From contig JAHEXV010000009.1 in assembly GCA_023251935.1 (NCBI GenBank), positions 1 to 53,617 on the forward strand: a stretch of 53,617 nt of DNA, written 5' to 3'. A program made the translations under genes and the position numbers. Under the pieces are notes generated by a model. The model searched no databases. It worked only from the letters and a program-made list of their open reading frames with translations, and had not been told where the DNA came from. Source of the DNA: a bacterium. Lineage in GTDB: Bacteria; Actinomycetota; Thermoleophilia; Solirubrobacterales; 70-9. This document shows, piece by piece, positions 230-41,027 of this stretch; position 1 is the stretch's first letter, and every line of letters starts with the position of its first letter.

Positions 230-446
230 GGACGAGCGCTGCGTGGGAGCAGTGTCCCCAGCCTTGCCCTCGCGCGGAGCCGCGCATGGCTGGGTAGGAG
301 GAGCGGCGTCAGCTCACCCGCTCGTCCCGTCGGTTGTCGCCTAACTCGGCCTGAGACCGAGTAACCCGACAAGCGATCGGCAGGAAGCCCGGTCCCGGCG
401 ACCCCCTACCGGGCCGAGCGCTGTCCGACCGTGGGAGTCGGCGTAC
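230..446. other. Convergent intergenic region with several hairpins
   Basis: This 217-nt gap lies between two converging genes. I see a nested hairpin at 257-294 (outer arms CCCAGCC/GGCTGGG, inner arms GCGCGG/CCGCGC), then short stems ACTCGG/CCGAGT, CCCGGT/ACCGGG near 390-415, and CCGAC/GTCGG near 426-440. None has a U-run. They may be Rho-dependent or hairpin-only terminators. I could not match the region to RNase P RNA, tmRNA, SRP RNA or a riboswitch I know. Confidence 0.3.
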
Positions 447-16488: not shown

Positions 16489-18807
16489 GTGCGGCGCGTC
16501 ACCTTCTCGCGGAACTACACGCTCTCACTTTCGAGAACCTGCCGCTGCTACTGCAAGTACTGCGCCTTCGCCACCCACCGGGCGCACCTGTACACGCCGG
16601 ATCAGGTCGAGCGGCGGCTCGACGAGGCGGTGCGGCGAAACACCAAGGAACTGCTCGTCCTGACGGGCGAGCGGCCCGAGGTCAATCCCGCCGTCGCCGA
16701 GCGCCTCCGTGACCTCGGCCATCGGGACTTCGTCTCCTACGTCGTCTGGGCCTGCGAGCGCGCCCTGGAGCGCGGGCTCCTGCCCCATACGAACCTCGGC
16801 GTCCTCAGCGCCGCCGACCTGACACGGCTCCGCGAGGTGACGGCATCCCAGGGGCTGATGCTGGAGTCGATCTCGGAGCGGTTGATGGACACCGTCCACG
16901 CCGGCTCGCCGACCAAGCACCCGGCGCGTCGCCTCGAGACGATCGAGGCGGCGGGGCGGCTGCGGATTCCGTTCACGAGCGGGATCCTGGTCGGGATCGG
17001 CGAGACCGAGGAGGAGCGGATCGCCTCGCTCGAGGCGCTCGCGGAGGTCAACGGCCGCCACGGTCACATCCAGGAGGTCATCCTCCAGAACTTCGTCCCG
17101 CATCCGCGCTATTACGGCCGCGAAGTCGCCGAGATCGCCGACGAGGCGGCGCGGCAGCGGTGGGCCCGCGAAGCCGCGGAGGTATCCGGTGAGACAACGT
17201 CGCAAGGTGGGGGGGCAGGGGCTAGAGACGAAGTCCCGGTAGATGGGGAGGTGCCTGCCGCCACGTTGGAGCCCGAACCCGCCGGAAACGCAGCCGTAGG
17301 CGAGGCTTCCGGCGGAGGTGTTCTTCCCGGTTGGGCGACGCCGATCAGCTTGGACGACATGAAGCTGCTGGTTCGCGAGTGCCGGCGGCTGATGCCCGAG
17401 GTGGGGATCCAGATCCCGCCGAACCTCGCGGACTGGTGGGACGAGCTGGTCGCCGAGGGCGCTACCGACCTCGGCGGCCTGTCGGCGAACGGCGACCACA
17501 TCTCGCCGGAGCACGCCTTCCCCAGCCCGCACCAGGTGCGCAAGAGGCTTCAGCCGCGCGGCTACGCGCTCACCGAGCGTCTCTGCGCCTATCCCCAGTA
17601 CCTCGACCCGGGGTGGATGGAGCAGAGCGTCCTCGACGTCGTGAAGCTCAAGTACTGGAGCTTCATCCCTCGCCAGGGGTCGGGACGGCGCAACGGGCAA
17701 ACGGTCGCCCCGGACGTCGCCCCGCGGGCGATCGAGAAGGGGCGCCGGGGCGAGGCGCTGACCGAGGAGGAGACCGGCGCCCTGTTCGCCGAGACGCGCC
17801 CCGAGGTGATCGAGGAGATGCGGGTCGCCGCGGACGGGCTGAGGGCCGAGCTCGCCGGCGAGCGGGTCACCTTCGTGGTCAACCGCAACATCAACTTCAC
17901 CAACGTCTGCGTGGTCGGCTGCGCCTTCTGCGGCTTCGGACAGGGCCGCCGCTCCCCCGACGCCTACCACGTCGCCGAGGACGACTTCCAGGCCCGGGTG
18001 CAGGAGGCGGTCGACTACGGGGCCACCGAGATCTGTATGCAGGGCGGGATCCATCCCGACTACACGCTCGAGCGCTACGGCCGCTGGCTGCGGCTGGTCA
18101 AGGAGGTCGCGCCGCGGATCCATCTGCACGCCTACTCGCCGATGGAGATCCACTTCATGTGCGAGCGCTCCGGCAAGTCGCCGCGGGCCGTGTTCGACTA
18201 CCTGCTCGGCTGCGGTCTCGGGTCGACGCCGGGGACGGCTGCCGAAGTCCTGCACGACGGGGTCCGCACGAGGATCTCGCCCAACAAGCTCCCGGTCGCG
18301 CGCTGGGTGGAGATCATCGAGGCCTGCCACCGCTCGGGCCTTCGCTCGACGTCGACGGTGATGTTCGGCCACATCGAGGAGCCCGCGGAGTTGGCCCGTC
18401 ACATGCGGGTCGTGCGCGAGCTCCAGGAGCGCACAGGGGGGATCACCGAGTTCGTGCCGCTGTCGTTCATCCCCTTCAACACCCTGCTCGGCCGCACACA
18501 CGGGGTCGAGGAGATCTCCCGCGCCGAGAACCTCAAGCACACGGCCGCCTTCCGGCTGGCGCTCGGCAGGACGATCCCCAACCTGCAGGCGAGCTGGGTG
18601 AAGATGGGCCTCGATGCCGCCACCGAGAGCCTGCGCTGGGGGGTCAACGACCTCGGCGGCACGTTGATGGAGGAGAACATCTCCCGGATGGCCGGCTCCC
18701 ACCACGGCGTCCGCCTCGATCCACCCCAGCTGATCGCCGCCGCGCGCGAGGCGGGCCGTGAACCCGCCCAGCGCACGACCCTGTACGAGATCGTCGAAAC
18801 GTACTGA
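16489..18807 (+). CDS. fbiC: FO synthase, fused CofG-CofH (FbiC)
   Basis: A 772-residue double radical-SAM enzyme that makes FO, the deazaflavin ring of coenzyme F420, from tyrosine and a flavin-pathway uracil precursor. Each half has its CxxxCxxC Fe-S motif: C18/C22/C25 (CRCYCKYC) and C474/C478/C481 (CVVGCAFC). The CofG half continues with GILVGIGETEEER and IPPNLADWWDELVA; the CofH half has EICMQGGIHPDY, LHAYSPMEI and STVMFGHIEE. Between W225 and W282 there is a low-complexity linker (residues 233-281) with inverted repeats that looks like an in-frame insertion. It starts with GTG. The remaining F420 genes lie at 21.3-24.4 kb. Confidence 0.93.
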   Translation: MRRVTFSRNYTLSLSRTCRCYCKYCAFATHRAHLYTPDQVERRLDEAVRRNTKELLVLTGERPEVNPAVAERLRDLGHRDFVSYVVWACERALERGLLPHTNLGVLSAADLTRLREVTASQGLMLESISERLMDTVHAGSPTKHPARRLETIEAAGRLRIPFTSGILVGIGETEEERIASLEALAEVNGRHGHIQEVILQNFVPHPRYYGREVAEIADEAARQRWAREAAEVSGETTSQGGGAGARDEVPVDGEVPAATLEPEPAGNAAVGEASGGGVLPGWATPISLDDMKLLVRECRRLMPEVGIQIPPNLADWWDELVAEGATDLGGLSANGDHISPEHAFPSPHQVRKRLQPRGYALTERLCAYPQYLDPGWMEQSVLDVVKLKYWSFIPRQGSGRRNGQTVAPDVAPRAIEKGRRGEALTEEETGALFAETRPEVIEEMRVAADGLRAELAGERVTFVVNRNINFTNVCVVGCAFCGFGQGRRSPDAYHVAEDDFQARVQEAVDYGATEICMQGGIHPDYTLERYGRWLRLVKEVAPRIHLHAYSPMEIHFMCERSGKSPRAVFDYLLGCGLGSTPGTAAEVLHDGVRTRISPNKLPVARWVEIIEACHRSGLRSTSTVMFGHIEEPAELARHMRVVRELQERTGGITEFVPLSFIPFNTLLGRTHGVEEISRAENLKHTAAFRLALGRTIPNLQASWVKMGLDAATESLRWGVNDLGGTLMEENISRMAGSHHGVRLDPPQLIAAAREAGREPAQRTTLYEIVETY

Positions 18808-18837
18808 GCGCGCCCGAGCCCGAACCGGGGCGCGCCC

Positions 18838-18877
18838 ATCGAGTGCGGGGTTGGGGACCGTATGCGTACCGAATCGC
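18838..18877 (+). repeat. 40-bp direct repeat, left copy
   Basis: Matches 19781-19820 at 39 of 40 positions. It spans the DNA just upstream of the AbiEi-DUF559 gene and its first five codons, including the ATG. The core GGGGACCGTATGCGTACC is partly self-complementary (GTATGCGTAC). Confidence 0.9.
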
Positions 18878-19776
18878 GCCCTCGATGCCCCGACCTGGTC
18901 ATCGCGGCGCTCGCACGCCGCCAGCACGGGGTAGTGGCGAGGCGCGACCTGCTGCAGCGCGGAATCACGAGCCGGCAGATCAAGCTGCGCCTGCGCAACG
19001 GTCGGCTCCACGAAATCCACCGGGGCGTCTACCTCGTCGGACATGTGGTGATCACGGAGCATGGACGGGACATGGCCGCGCTGCTCGCCTGCGGCGCCGG
19101 CGCCACCCTCAGTCATCGAAGCGCCGCGTCGCTTTGGCAGTTGCTTCCGTACCCAGCCTCAGCCCGGGCCTGCGTCACGCTGCCGCCCGGGCGGAGCGTC
19201 GCGAGGCCCGGGATCGAGATTCATCGTGCGGCGATTCCAGGGTCAGATCTCCGTCGGCGAGCGCGGATGCCCCTCACAAGCCCGCCGCGGACGGTCCTTG
19301 ACCTCGCTGCTGAGCTCGATCTAGGCGATCTCGAGCGTCTTGTCGCGGAGGCCAACTACCGGCGCCTGGCCGGCGACGCCGAGCTCCGCGAGCAGCTCGA
19401 ACGCAACCCGGGCAAGCGAGGGACCACGGCCGTGAGGAAGGTCCTCGACCTGGTCGGCGGACCGAGGCGAACCCGCTCGCATGCGGAACGACAGATGCTC
19501 AACCTGCTTCGCCGGGCTGGAGTCGCTGGCTACGAAACGAATGCGCGGATCCATGGCTTCGAGGTGGACCTGCTGTGGCGCGAGCGTAGTTTCGCGGTCG
19601 AGATTGACGGCTACCGCGCCCACTCAGGCCGCCTGGCCTTCGAGCGGGATCGCCTCAAGATGGCCACGCTGAAGGCCCGCGGGCTTGAGGTGATGCCGAT
19701 CACGCCGCGCCAGCTGCGCGACGACCCCGAGGGGGTGGTGGCGAGGTTGCGCACGGCGCTCGAGCTGGCGGCCTGA
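18862..19776 (+). CDS. AbiEi-like winged-helix protein with C-terminal DUF559 endonuclease-like domain
   Basis: A 304-residue protein. The N-terminal domain (about 10-75) has the AbiEi antitoxin-like helix-turn-helix: RQHGVVARRDLLQRGITSRQ, then GRLHEIHRGVYLVG. The middle (80-190) is typical of this family (LSHRSAASLWQLLP, TSPPRTVLDLAA). The C-terminus (215-300) is a DUF559/Vsr-like nuclease fold: VDLLWRERSFAVEIDGYRAH, then FERDRLKMATLKARGLEVM. Such proteins occur in many copies in Actinobacteria; no AbiEii toxin partner is present. It is flanked by 40-bp direct repeats, the left one containing its start codon, which suggests it moved or was duplicated as a unit. Function unproven. Confidence 0.75.
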   Translation: MRTESRPRCPDLVIAALARRQHGVVARRDLLQRGITSRQIKLRLRNGRLHEIHRGVYLVGHVVITEHGRDMAALLACGAGATLSHRSAASLWQLLPYPASARACVTLPPGRSVARPGIEIHRAAIPGSDLRRRARMPLTSPPRTVLDLAAELDLGDLERLVAEANYRRLAGDAELREQLERNPGKRGTTAVRKVLDLVGGPRRTRSHAERQMLNLLRRAGVAGYETNARIHGFEVDLLWRERSFAVEIDGYRAHSGRLAFERDRLKMATLKARGLEVMPITPRQLRDDPEGVVARLRTALELAA

Positions 19777-19780
19777 AGAG

Positions 19781-19820
19781 ATCGAGTGCGAGGTTGGGGA
19801 CCGTATGCGTACCGAATCGC
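19781..19820 (+). repeat. 40-bp direct repeat, right copy
   Basis: Second copy of the repeat at 18838-18877, with one mismatch. It begins 4 nt after the DUF559 gene's stop and contains a stranded copy of that gene's start codon, now in frame with the alcohol dehydrogenase but not its likely start. Confidence 0.9.
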
Positions 19821-19852
19821 ACAGTGACGCCGGCCCCGGCGACAATGGGCCT

Positions 19853-20899
19853 ATGCGGGCGATGGTTCTCCACGGGCAGCGCGAGCCGCTTCGGCTGGAG
19901 GAGCGACCAGACCCGCGGCCCGGGCCCGGACAGGTCCAACTGGGGGTTCACGCCTGCGGTGTGTGTCGCACCGATCTCCACGTCGTCGACGGCGACCTGC
20001 ACGAGCCCAAGCTGCCCCTCGTCCCGGGGCATCAGATCGTCGGCACCGTTGAGGGAAGGGGGGAGGGGGCGGGGCGTTTCGCGGTCGGCCAGCGGGTGGG
20101 AGTCCCATGGCTTGGCTGGACCGATGGCGAGTGTCGCTACTGTCGCTCCGGGAGGGAGAACCTCTGCGAGCGCGCCCGGTTCACCGGCTACCAGCTCGAC
20201 GGGGGCTACGCCGAGACGGCGGTGGCGGATGAGCGCTACTGCTTCCCGATCCCCGATGGCTACCCGGACCTCCAGGCGGCGCCGCTGCTCTGCGCCGGGT
20301 TGATCGGCTACCGGTCGCTGCGGCTGTGCGGGGACGCGGCAACGCTCGGCCTGTTCGGCTTCGGGGCCTCCGCTCACATCGTCTGCCAGGTGGCCGTCCA
20401 CCAGGGACGCGAGGTCCATGCCCTGACCAGGCCCGGCGATCGCGAGACGCAGCGCTTCGCCCTCGAGCTGGGCGCCGCCTGGGCGGGCGACACCGAAGGG
20501 GGCTCGGAGGTTTCGGATCCCGTGGAGGCCCGCGTTCGCGCCGGACTCGAGGCCGCGATCATCTTCGCCCCGGCGGGCGAGCTCGTGCCGGTCGCGCTCG
20601 GCGCCGTGGCTCCGGGGGGAACGGTCGTCTGCGCGGGCATCCACATGAGCGACATCCCCTCGTTCCCGTACGAGATCCTCTGGGGCGAGCGGACGCTGCG
20701 CTCGGTCGCCAACCTGACCCGCGCCGACGGCGAGGAATTCATCGCCCTGGCGCCCCGGGTGCCGGTCAGAACGGAGGTCGCGGAATACCCGCTCGAGCGG
20801 GCGAACCAGGCGCTCGACGACCTGCGCGCCGGTAGGGTTCACGGCGCGGCGGTGCTGTCGATGGCAAACGCGCAAGCGGAGAGGAAGGCTGATGGCTGA
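19853..20899 (+). CDS. Zinc-dependent alcohol dehydrogenase-like oxidoreductase
   Basis: A 348-residue medium-chain dehydrogenase. Catalytic zinc ligands are visible as C38 (HACGVCRTDLH) and H60 (VPGHQIVG). The structural zinc lobe reads TDGECRYCRSGRENLC: C94, C97 and C105 are present but the first of the four ligands is D91 in place of cysteine. The nucleotide-binding loop LGLFGFGASAHI follows. The ATG at 19853 begins the conserved MRAMVLHGQREPL; the in-frame ATG at 19805 belongs to the repeat. It overlaps the cupin gene by 8 nt. The substrate is unknown. Confidence 0.85.
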   Translation: MRAMVLHGQREPLRLEERPDPRPGPGQVQLGVHACGVCRTDLHVVDGDLHEPKLPLVPGHQIVGTVEGRGEGAGRFAVGQRVGVPWLGWTDGECRYCRSGRENLCERARFTGYQLDGGYAETAVADERYCFPIPDGYPDLQAAPLLCAGLIGYRSLRLCGDAATLGLFGFGASAHIVCQVAVHQGREVHALTRPGDRETQRFALELGAAWAGDTEGGSEVSDPVEARVRAGLEAAIIFAPAGELVPVALGAVAPGGTVVCAGIHMSDIPSFPYEILWGERTLRSVANLTRADGEEFIALAPRVPVRTEVAEYPLERANQALDDLRAGRVHGAAVLSMANAQAERKADG

Positions 20900-21284
20900 C
20901 GTCACGGTGAAGCGGCTGGAGGAGTTCGACACGATCTTCGGAGGCGGCTTCCGCCGGGTCCGCGCCGGCCTCGGCGTGAGCTCGTTCGGGGTCGCTGTGA
21001 TGGACCTCCCGCCCGGCTTCGACCGCTACCCGGAGCACGACCACACCGGCGACGGGCAGGAAGAGGTCTACACCGTGCTGGCGGGGAGGGCGACCTTGAC
21101 CGTCGGTGGCACCGATCACGAGCTCGAGCCGGGGGTGTTCGCGCGGGTCGGGCCCGAGGAGACGCGCAAGATCACCACCGAGGACGAGGGGGCTCGGGTG
21201 CTGGCGATCGGAGGCTCCCCGGGGAGGGTCTACGCGGCGCCGGAGTACACCGAGGAGGGCCAGCCCGACCCGATCGCGAGCTGA
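20892..21284 (+). CDS. Cupin-domain protein
   Basis: A 130-residue single-domain cupin. The first cupin motif reads PEHDHTGDGQEEVYTVLAG, with two histidines and a glutamate as likely metal ligands, and the second is around ELEPGVFARVGPEETRKI, where the usual histidine is absent. Overlap with the dehydrogenase gene implies translational coupling. It could be a small metal-binding sensor or isomerase; function unassigned. Confidence 0.75.
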   Translation: MADVTVKRLEEFDTIFGGGFRRVRAGLGVSSFGVAVMDLPPGFDRYPEHDHTGDGQEEVYTVLAGRATLTVGGTDHELEPGVFARVGPEETRKITTEDEGARVLAIGGSPGRVYAAPEYTEEGQPDPIAS

Positions 21285-21317
21285 GCCGGGCCAGTCTCCG
21301 CTCCGCGGCCGCGGCCG

Positions 21318-22082
21318 CTAGCGGAACAGGTCGTCGGGCTCGGGGCGACGCAGTACCCGGGCGCCGGGACCGTGATCGGCGCTCACGAATCGCTCCAGGC
21401 CCCGAACCAGGCAGGCCGGCAGCCCCGACTCCTTGGTCCGGGTCAGATCCGCGGCTGCGGCCACCTGATCGGCGAGGGCGATCTCGGTGACCGCGAGCTC
21501 TCGCCCGGCTCGATCGCGCCGCCCGCGCCGGTCGTCGAGCGGCGTCAGCCCGGCGCAGCCGATCGCGACGTCGGTTTGACCCAGCCGCCACGGCCGGCCG
21601 AAGCTGTCGGCGATCACGACGGCGGGCGCGACTCCCGTGGCCGCGTCGAGCTCGACCCGGATTCGGCGCGCCGAGGCGTCCGGATCCTCAGGCAACAGCG
21701 TGACGCTGAGATCGCCGGGGACGTTGGAGGCGTCGATGCCGGCGTTGGCGCAGATCCAGCCGCCCCGCGTCTCGACGATCAGCACGCCCCGCTCGGCGCG
21801 GACCACGGCGCGACTCTCGCCCAGGATCAACTCGACCAGGCGCGGGTCCTTTCCGAGCCCGCTCGCCACCTCGCGGGCCCGACGCCCGGGCTCGACCAGC
21901 GCCAGATCGCGCACCCGGCCCTCGGCCTTCGAGACCACCTTCTGCGAGATGACGACGATGTCCCCGGCGTCCAGCTGCTCGCCCGCCGCCCCGATCGCCC
22001 CCCCGATCAGCGTCCCGAGCCGGTCGTGTGCCGCGATCTCGGGGAGGCCCGGGATCCCGATCAGCTCGACTCGCCAGTCCAT
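21318..22082 (-). CDS. cofE: Coenzyme F420-0:L-glutamate ligase
   Basis: A 254-residue protein of the CofE/FbiB N-terminal family, which adds glutamates to F420-0 using GTP. Family marks are GDIVVISQKVVSKAEGR (40-56), NAGIDASNVP (113-122) and VVIADSFGRPWRLGQTDVAI. There is no C-terminal nitroreductase-like domain as in mycobacterial FbiB, so the last reduction step of dehydro-F420 would need another protein. Its ATG overlaps the cofC stop (ATGA), making it the third gene of a cofD-cofC-cofE operon. Confidence 0.92.
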   Translation of the reverse strand: MDWRVELIGIPGLPEIAAHDRLGTLIGGAIGAAGEQLDAGDIVVISQKVVSKAEGRVRDLALVEPGRRAREVASGLGKDPRLVELILGESRAVVRAERGVLIVETRGGWICANAGIDASNVPGDLSVTLLPEDPDASARRIRVELDAATGVAPAVVIADSFGRPWRLGQTDVAIGCAGLTPLDDRRGRRDRAGRELAVTEIALADQVAAAADLTRTKESGLPACLVRGLERFVSADHGPGARVLRRPEPDDLFR

Positions 22083-22771
22083 CAGCTCGCCCGGCTTCGC
22101 AGGCGGCCGGAGCGCTCGAGCTCACCGGCGGTCTGCGGCGCGAGGTCGGGCTCGCGCTCCAAGGTCGCGGTCAGCTCATCGAGGTCGGCCGGCGTGTCCA
22201 GATCGAGCCCCAGCGAGTCGAGTCGCTCGATCTCCACGGCGAGGCCCGCCCTGCGTGCCCGCTGGGCGTGGCGGGCGCAGCTATCGGGCCCGAACGCTGG
22301 GCCGATCGCGTTGGGGGGCGCCAGAAGGAGCGCGTTCGTCCCGGTCCCGTGACGGTCGGGGACGATCGCCACCCGGCCCGATCGCTGGCGCCGCAGCGCC
22401 GCATCCAGCTCGGCGGGATCGAGCAGCGGACAGTCGCCCGGCAGCAGCACGGCGCACTCGGCGCCCAGAGCCCGCGCCCGCACGATCCCCAGCGTCGCCG
22501 CCTGCGAGTGCCCGAGGTCCTTCGGGTCGCGGAGGATCTCCAACCCCACGCCCGCCCCCGGAGCCCGCCGCAGGGCGATCCTCTCGGCTCGTCGCTCGCC
22601 GGTGACCACGATCACCCGGTCGACCTGCTCGGCTCGGCGGACGGCGGCGAGCACGTCGGCGAGCATCGCCCCGACCAGCGCGACCCGACCGCGGCGATCG
22701 AGCGCCTCGAGCAGCCGCTGCTTCGCGGCGCCGAAGCGCTTCACGGGGATGATCGCGATCGCGCCTCCCAC
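22082..22771 (-). CDS. cofC: 2-phospho-L-lactate/PEP guanylyltransferase
   Basis: A 229-residue nucleotidyltransferase of the CofC/FbiD family, which activates phospholactate or phosphoenolpyruvate with GTP for F420 side-chain assembly. It has the N-terminal IIPVKRFGAAKQRL (7-20), a central LGHSQAATLGI, VLLPGDCPLLDPAEL, and IVPDRHGTGTNALLLAPP. The GTG at 22771 is 5 nt after the cofD stop. Longer upstream open frames only overlap cofD and are ignored. The product feeds CofD, encoded just before it. Confidence 0.9.
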   Translation of the reverse strand: MGGAIAIIPVKRFGAAKQRLLEALDRRGRVALVGAMLADVLAAVRRAEQVDRVIVVTGERRAERIALRRAPGAGVGLEILRDPKDLGHSQAATLGIVRARALGAECAVLLPGDCPLLDPAELDAALRRQRSGRVAIVPDRHGTGTNALLLAPPNAIGPAFGPDSCARHAQRARRAGLAVEIERLDSLGLDLDTPADLDELTATLEREPDLAPQTAGELERSGRLRSRAS

Positions 22772-22776
22772 GCGTC

Positions 22777-23697
22777 TCAGCCCAGCGCGCGGGCGAATTC
22801 GAGGACACGCTCCGCGAGCGCGCGCCGGCCGTCCGCGCCGTCCATCAGGGTCGGACAGGAGGCGAGGGGAAGGTCGTCCGGGCCTGGATCGGGATCGTCG
22901 GCGTCGACGATCATCGCCTCGATCACCCCCACGTACAGCGATGCCGCCCCAGCCGCAGTCGCGGGCCGGCCGATCGAGGTCATGAACTTCTCGGTCGGTC
23001 CCTTGACCGCCCTGCCCGCGACGAACGGGCTGACGGCGAGCACGGGCGCTCCGGAGGCTGCGATCGCGTCTCGCATTCCGGGCACCGAGAGGATCGGCCC
23101 GATCGAGATCACCGGGTTGGACGGGCCGACGACGATCACCTCGGCGCCGGCGAGCGCATCGCGCACCTCGGCGGTGGGAGCCGCCGCATCGAGCCCCCGC
23201 ACCTCGACCCCCTCGATCGGCGGCTCCGATCGCCCGACGATCAGGTACTCCTGAAGGCCGACCCAGCCGCCTGGGGTGAGGATCATGGTCTCGACCCGCT
23301 CCTCGCACATCGGCAACACCGCGGCGGGCACCCCCAGTGCCTGGGCGATCTGACCCTGGGCGGCGGTCAAGGTGCCCCCCTCGGCGCGGAAATGGGTTCG
23401 GTACAGGCAGGTCGCAAGGTCGCGGTCGGAGAGCTGAAACCAGCCGGGAGCGCCCAGGCGCTCGATGCGCTCGTTGACCGTGAACGTGTCGCCTCGGATC
23501 CCCCAGCCGCGCTCCTCGTCGATCTCCCCCGCCAGCCAGTAGGTGATCAGGTCGGGGTCGGGGGAGACGTGAAGGCCGTGGACCCAGGTGTCGTCGGCGG
23601 TGTTGGCGATCACCGCCAGCTCGGAACCGACCAGCTCCTGCATCCCCGCCGCGAGCTTTGCCCCTCCGGTCCCCCCGGCCAGCAACGCGATTCGCAT
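22777..23697 (-). CDS. cofD: 2-phospho-L-lactate transferase (CofD/FbiA)
   Basis: A 306-residue protein that transfers the activated lactyl or phosphoenolpyruvyl group to FO. The N-terminus has the nucleotide-binding ALLAGGTGGAKLAAG (4-18), followed by VIANTADDTWVHGLHVSPD (29-47), which is diagnostic for the family. Later marks are VIVVGPSNPVISIGPIL and AVSPFVAGRAVKGPTEKFM. The ATG at 23697 is the first codon of the operon running to cofE. A 52-nt gap separates it from the F420 oxidoreductase gene on the same strand, so all four may be co-transcribed. Confidence 0.93.
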   Translation of the reverse strand: MRIALLAGGTGGAKLAAGMQELVGSELAVIANTADDTWVHGLHVSPDPDLITYWLAGEIDEERGWGIRGDTFTVNERIERLGAPGWFQLSDRDLATCLYRTHFRAEGGTLTAAQGQIAQALGVPAAVLPMCEERVETMILTPGGWVGLQEYLIVGRSEPPIEGVEVRGLDAAAPTAEVRDALAGAEVIVVGPSNPVISIGPILSVPGMRDAIAASGAPVLAVSPFVAGRAVKGPTEKFMTSIGRPATAAGAASLYVGVIEAMIVDADDPDPGPDDLPLASCPTLMDGADGRRALAERVLEFARALG

Positions 23698-23749
23698 CAG
23701 CGCCCTCGCGAGACCAGGCGGGGCGCCGCGGCGATCGGCTCGGCGGTCA

Positions 23750-24436
23750 TCACTCCCAGGGATCCCCTCCCGGCAGGCCGGTGATCCGGATCCCCGCGTG
23801 GGCCTTGTAGCGGGCGTTGATCGAGATCAGAAGCGGGGTGATCTGCTCGACGATCCGCGCCGCCTCGAGCGCTCCGGCGTTGACAGCCCGCAGGCCCGGG
23901 ATCCGCTCCACGATTCGCGCGACCCTGGCCTTGTCGGCCTTGCGATCGCCGCAGATCAGGATGTCCTCGTCGAGCTCCGCCTCCGGGTCGCCGAGCATCT
24001 GCGCGCTCACGGTGTGCAGAGCGGCGACGACGCTCACCCCTTCCGGGACCATCTCCTCAGCCTGCTGCGCGGCCGAACCCTGCCAGACGCCCAGCGAGCG
24101 GGTGGCCTTCCCGCTCACGGCGGCCGCGGTGGGGACCGTGCAGTCGACCAGGAGCTGCCCCGGCTCCAACGCATCGCGGAGGTTGTTCAGGTTCTCGGAC
24201 TGGGCTCGGAAGGGAACGGTGAGGAAGACGACCGGCCCCCGCCGCGCCGCGTCGGCATTGCCCGACCCCTCGGCCTCGGCGCCGGGCACCGCCTCCGTCA
24301 GGCGCTCCACGGCCTGCTCGGCGCGCTCCGGACTTCGCGAGCCGATCACGACAGGCTCGCCGGCCCTGGCCAGTCGCATCGCCAGGCCCCAGCCGAGCGC
24401 CCCGGTGCCGCCGATGATCGGGATTGGCTCCGACAT
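23750..24436 (-). CDS. npdG: NADPH-dependent F420 reductase
   Basis: A 228-residue two-dinucleotide-binding protein of the Fno/NpdG family, which exchanges hydride between NADPH and F420. The N-terminal PIIGGTGALGWGLAMRLARAG (6-26) is the nucleotide-binding turn, and GSRSPERA is the phosphate-recognition loop. VVFLTVPF and ALHTVSAQML are family marks. It heads the cofDCE gene group. Its ATG lies 8 nt from a TATGCT box inside the palindrome at 24440-24459, so it likely has a leaderless mRNA from a promoter shared with the divergent SDR gene. Confidence 0.88.
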   Translation of the reverse strand: MSEPIPIIGGTGALGWGLAMRLARAGEPVVIGSRSPERAEQAVERLTEAVPGAEAEGSGNADAARRGPVVFLTVPFRAQSENLNNLRDALEPGQLLVDCTVPTAAAVSGKATRSLGVWQGSAAQQAEEMVPEGVSVVAALHTVSAQMLGDPEAELDEDILICGDRKADKARVARIVERIPGLRAVNAGALEAARIVEQITPLLISINARYKAHAGIRITGLPGGDPWE

Positions 24437-40942: not shown

Positions 40943-41027
40943 CTGGCCCCCGACGATCCGATCCCAGTTATGCGTGGCATGGGTGCATAGCTGGGCTCAG
41001 TTCATCGCGCGCTAGCCTCGGACGACC

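Follow-up and report, generated by a model that had tools for sequence, protein, structure and literature searches.

Described relatives of a repeat-bracketed AbiEi-DUF559 gene

Repetitive extragenic palindromic (REP) elements, and the REP doublets forming hairpins (REPINs), are short intergenic palindromes dispersed together with a cognate nuclease-type master gene, the REP-associated tyrosine transposase (RAYT, TnpA-REP) (PMC3116915, PMC3733652). The promoter of AbiEi, the antitoxin of the type IV toxin-antitoxin system AbiE, contains two 23-bp inverted repeats, separated by 3 bp, to which the protein itself binds; Rv2827c has similar repeats, and neither protein binds the sites of the other (PMC7319586). 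The EDxHD-type homing endonuclease I-Bth0305I dimerises on a target of nearly 60 bp (PMC3943268). Here we describe an AbiEi-DUF559 gene lying between two copies of a 40-bp direct repeat in a 53,617-nucleotide stretch (the window) of the draft genome (G000) of a soil bacterium, whose family is placed by named relatives in Solirubrobacterales (Thermoleophilia, Actinomycetota). Our preferred reading, to which we assign a probability of about 0.6, is that a selfish system of palindromic repeats, which resembles REP/RAYT and uses an unrelated enzyme, has its master copy in this gene.

The protein has Pfam matches to AbiEi_4, MTES_1575 and DUF559, and its AlphaFold2 model (mean predicted local distance difference test score 91.9) indicates an AbiEi-type DNA-binding antitoxin fused to an EDxHD-type nuclease. 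The first ~200 residues of the model match the AbiEi antitoxin structure 6y8q, and the C-terminus matches the catalytic domain of I-Bth0305I (3r3p), with Vsr matching more weakly. The original prediction called the C-terminus Vsr-endonuclease-like and a homing-like mode conceivable; of the two, the homing endonuclease is the closer structure. Residues E209, D236, E247, D249 and H254 are invariant among 34 sequences and the ratio of nonsynonymous to synonymous substitution rates (dN/dS) is 0.16–0.33 in ten close pairs, which shows that the protein is under purifying selection and that its nuclease fold is intact.

In common with REP/RAYT, the palindromes are short, dispersed, intergenic and often 3'-adjacent, a dedicated nuclease-type gene is flanked by the cognate repeat, the masters are repeat-specific, and solo copies outnumber masters. 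The system differs in that its master combines AbiEi with an EDxHD nuclease and has no Y1/HuH transposase, and in that the repeat is a single palindrome of ~45 bp lacking the GTAG tag, the left copy of which holds the start codon. It works like REP/RAYT but is not a member, its master having no Y1 domain. REPs driven by a RAYT were rejected as a candidate because Y1_Tnp was not found in six of the seven genomes examined (G000 and five others), the seventh, G002, giving one match. The window protein shares the catalytic fold and residues of I-Bth0305I, whereas its gene stands between two intact genes instead of within an intron, intein or coding gene, and its putative targets are dispersed palindromes that are kept on both sides of the gene and are missing from empty alleles; it is not a classical homing gene. 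AbiEi/AbiEii has the same AbiEi fold and similarly sized sites in the form of paired inverted repeats (PMC7319586), and the palindrome has the look of two AbiEi arms on either side of a short centre, but here a nuclease is fused and the sites are dispersed. No AbiEii (DUF1814) toxin adjoins the gene at the window locus, where the neighbours are cofGH and an alcohol dehydrogenase gene, and the locus is not an AbiE toxin-antitoxin pair.

Start palindromes and their dispersed relatives

The 40-bp repeat makes up most of a 45-bp imperfect palindrome. The original prediction, that two 40-bp copies differing at one position bracket the gene, the left containing its start codon and the right lying 4 nt after its stop, holds for the 304-aa open reading frame: the left copy includes the ATG and the first codons, and the right copy begins 4 nt past the stop (Table 1). 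The chance of such a pair arising in the window is about 1e-13 in a uniform-base approximation.

For comparison, 127 homologous AbiEi-DUF559 loci were gathered from genomes of the same family and palindromes were scored over 18 pairs. A start palindrome of at least 14 pairs is present in 58 of the 127 genes (46%) as against 5 of 721 other gene starts (0.7%, P=8e-48), and in control positions the same score is reached by 0–2 of 127 inside DUF559 genes and 1 of 125 further upstream. Sixty-one control loci, from G000 and G002, were fetched around palindromes, which inflates the stop-side control (7.6%) and leaves the start-side control unaffected. Among the 87 start palindromes scoring at least 13, 52 are centred on an in-frame start codon. 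The arms vary between genes yet remain complementary; the counts of arm complementarity come from sequences picked for palindromy and are not independent, whereas the comparison of 58/127 with 5/721 is. GT mismatches in the arms are not above AC mismatches on the coding strand (57 vs 87 at starts), so that the constraint acts on double-stranded DNA, and an mRNA hairpin was rejected as its basis.

Direct repeats, with a sequence particular to each gene, also bracket other DUF559 genes. When upstream and downstream flanks were locally aligned gene by gene, 21 of 125 matched pairs, including that of the window gene, beat the best of 1,250 mismatched pairings, and left and right copies reach 49 identical bp. 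Start palindromes were also present in 12 of 30 loci from a second family of the order (0 of 30 mid-gene controls) and in 5 of 26 loci of a phylum sample (1 of 26 controls). A DUF559 paralogue of G000 with an in-frame TGA in the match (L008, contig C40) retains palindromes and has solo relatives in the genome.

A covariance model (R1) built from 34 start palindromes gave, among the matches listed, at least 44–67 in each of four genomes and 5 in G006. Across 1.05 Mb of sequence from G000 and G002, the matches sort into families. One family in G002 comprises ~37 copies of TGGCGAGTTTGTGGCGCTATGCGCCACAAACTCGCCA, two of which flank the DUF559 gene at C38 and ~35 of which are solo; in G000 the copies of TTGTCGCCTTACTCGGCCTGAGGCCGAGTTATCCGACAA number 15, of which one pair encloses the DUF559 gene at C101 and 13 are solo, one of these in the window. 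All 35 of the G002 solos, and 15 of 24 in G000, are closer to DUF559 flanks of their own genome than to those of any other genome, and such cognacy of gene and repeat was seen in G000, G002, G006, G033 and G120. In the genome search for the 40-bp repeat that the original prediction called for, the window type occurs just twice, with no third copy, in G000 (a 2.49-Mb metagenome-assembled genome (MAG), 84% complete); palindromes of other types are dispersed, also without a gene. Of 61 classifiable palindromes in G000 and G002, 60 are intergenic; 22 of these 60 (37%) lie at convergent junctions, which make up 19% of junctions, and 9 lie at divergent ones, with no enrichment. This intergenic, convergent-biased distribution resembles that of REP elements and not that of promoter operators. 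One stretch of G000 (L177, 10385-10561) holds three palindromes of three different types inside 180 bp.

In G120, a single-contig genome of 2.5 Mb from another, distant family, the lone detected DUF559 gene lies between two near-identical perfect palindromes (AACTTCGGGTGATTAGTGTCGCyATAGCGACACTAATCACCCGAAGTT). Some 15 other copies, which have diverged more, are spread over this genome, 16 of the 17 palindromes are intergenic, and half-sites number 24 as against 0 for the reversed pattern. Because the architecture recurs in a single contig, a draft-assembly artefact is excluded as a general explanation.

The window locus and its empty sites

The site is empty in five relatives from four genera, G003 (of the same genus), G007, G012, G021 and G072, where the dehydrogenase start lies within about 10 nt of the cofGH stop and there is no palindrome, as confirmed by direct reading of the cofGH-MRAMVL junctions. 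The original prediction advised comparing occupied and empty sites between strains; both kinds are seen here among relatives, and its interpretation is partly borne out. The empty sites carry no palindrome, and so this locus does not support its suggestion that the unit entered a pre-existing target resembling the 5' end of the gene itself. G002 retains at the same site the left palindrome with the first ~25 and last ~15 codons, fused at a short shared sequence as by internal deletion, and in G001 a membrane-protein gene adjoins cofGH. The simplest history suggested by these junctions is that the unit inserted in the G000/G002 lineage and later decayed in G002; loss in the other genomes would be less parsimonious. 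As to possible carriers, no phage record matched and a plasmid search gave four weak matches only.

Table 1. Positions of the gene, its repeats and neighbouring features in the window
Feature	Position	Strand	Support or remark
Left palindrome, ATG at centre	18840..18884	+	Covariance model R1, 34 bits, E 2.7e-6 (this copy is among the 34 sequences building the model)
Right palindrome, direct repeat of the left	19783..19827	+	18.2 bits, E 0.035 (weaker)
40-bp direct repeat copies	18838-18877 and 19781-19820		39/40 identical
AbiEi_4 + DUF559/MTES_1575 gene, 304 aa	18862..19776	+	
AbiEi-like DNA-binding part, about residues 10-190	18889..19431	+	6y8q, E 1.5e-7
EDxHD/Vsr-type nuclease domain, about residues 207-303	19480..19770	+	3r3p, E 2.5e-4, TM (template modelling) score 0.82 on target; invariant residues
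Solo palindrome, not of the window gene's type; its cognate DUF559 gene is at C101 of G000	331..375	-	36/41 to flank of locus L010
cofGH (F420 biosynthesis), left neighbour	16489..18807	+	
Zinc-type alcohol dehydrogenase, right neighbour	19853..20899	+	Adjoins cofGH directly in relatives without the element

The element sits inside an F420 gene cluster (window 16489-24436) of cofGH, F420 ligase, CofD and an F420-dependent oxidoreductase. Within the right palindrome, position 19805 has an ATG that shares the reading frame of the alcohol dehydrogenase gene; a start there would lengthen the enzyme by 16 residues. A weak match to the palindrome model is found at 40957-41001 (19.5 bits, E 0.016 in the window). 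A solo GTTCGCA..TGCGAAC palindrome stands at the same place after the dehydrogenase, ~1.03-1.05 kb past cofGH, in loci L286, L289 and L290, which come from three genomes of a single genus; its inner arms differ between them and are still complementary.

Proposed mechanism, alternatives and meaning

If the window gene is such a master copy, the mobile unit would be palindrome-gene-palindrome. By the AbiEi precedent, the AbiEi part would read one arm of ~20 bp, with two monomers per palindrome, and the left palindrome around the start codon may serve as an autoregulatory operator through which the protein represses its own start. The fused nuclease would cut or nick at cognate palindromes, after which the palindrome, and sometimes palindrome, gene and palindrome together, would be copied into other intergenic sites by repair or recombination. 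Solo palindromes would then be non-autonomous copies or relics.

Several points weigh against this reading. Binding, cleavage and movement are inferred. A nuclease by itself does not account for entry into a new site that has no palindrome, and cutting would have to be prevented at some 40 chromosomal targets. G004 has nine DUF559 genes and, among the matches listed, no match to the R1 model, while the TGGCGC family of G000 and families of G014 have no cognate gene among the genes fetched. Two solo sites are common to G000 and G002, which implies that turnover is slow or that some sites are kept; the intergenic regions are too diverged for solo insertion ends to be read. The genomes compared are one per species and mostly MAGs.

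A rival explanation is that an AbiEi-type regulator binds the palindromes, with autoregulation at the left copy, regulation of other genes at the dispersed ones, and an accessory or defensive nuclease. The solo positions shared by two species, the central place of the start codon in the left palindrome and the paired inverted repeats in the AbiEi promoter, with the separate specificity of Rv2827c (PMC7319586), fit this explanation. We nevertheless consider it unlikely, as solos favour convergent junctions and show no divergent enrichment, copies are also present after the stop codon, two species belonging to the same genus have different families, and at several comparable sites the other species lacks a copy. 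It is also conceivable that the repeats are REP-like and were dispersed by some other factor, or by template switching during replication, the DUF559 genes having been captured and using them as landing sites or operators. Template switching could keep arms matched without selection, and the families without a detected partner gene point the same way. The cognacy of gene and repeat in five genomes argues against this capture, as does the near absence of the Y1 transposase, and we find it quite improbable. The finding of only two copies of the window type in G000 agrees with a simple local duplication in which the 5' end of the gene was copied, or with an assembly artefact. The original prediction would have been left with local duplication had repeats been absent from other DUF559 loci and relatives lacked empty sites; repeats and empty sites were both found, and the same architecture recurs with different sequences at many loci. 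Duplication or artefact is contradicted by the matched flanks at those loci and by single-contig G120, and we regard it as hardly credible.

Beyond the window gene, which we continue to read as the master of a selfish repeat system, AbiEi-EDxHD proteins in general may act as masters for selfish palindromic repeats that form one class throughout the phylum Actinomycetota, a proposal to which we give even odds. In such a class an antitoxin operator would have turned into a mobile unit served by a homing-type nuclease and no transposase, with the specificities of repeat and protein co-diverging gene by gene. This kind of selfish repeat system looks undescribed; a search of the open-access literature, to which this statement is confined, found no link of DUF559 or AbiEi to dispersed palindromes. 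If true, the proposal would give a role to many unexplained AbiEi-DUF559 paralogues of Actinomycetota and would make this a second, independently evolved REP-like system. It would also supply many natural cases in which a DNA-binding domain is matched with a palindrome of its own, from which the reading of DNA by AbiEi could be worked out.
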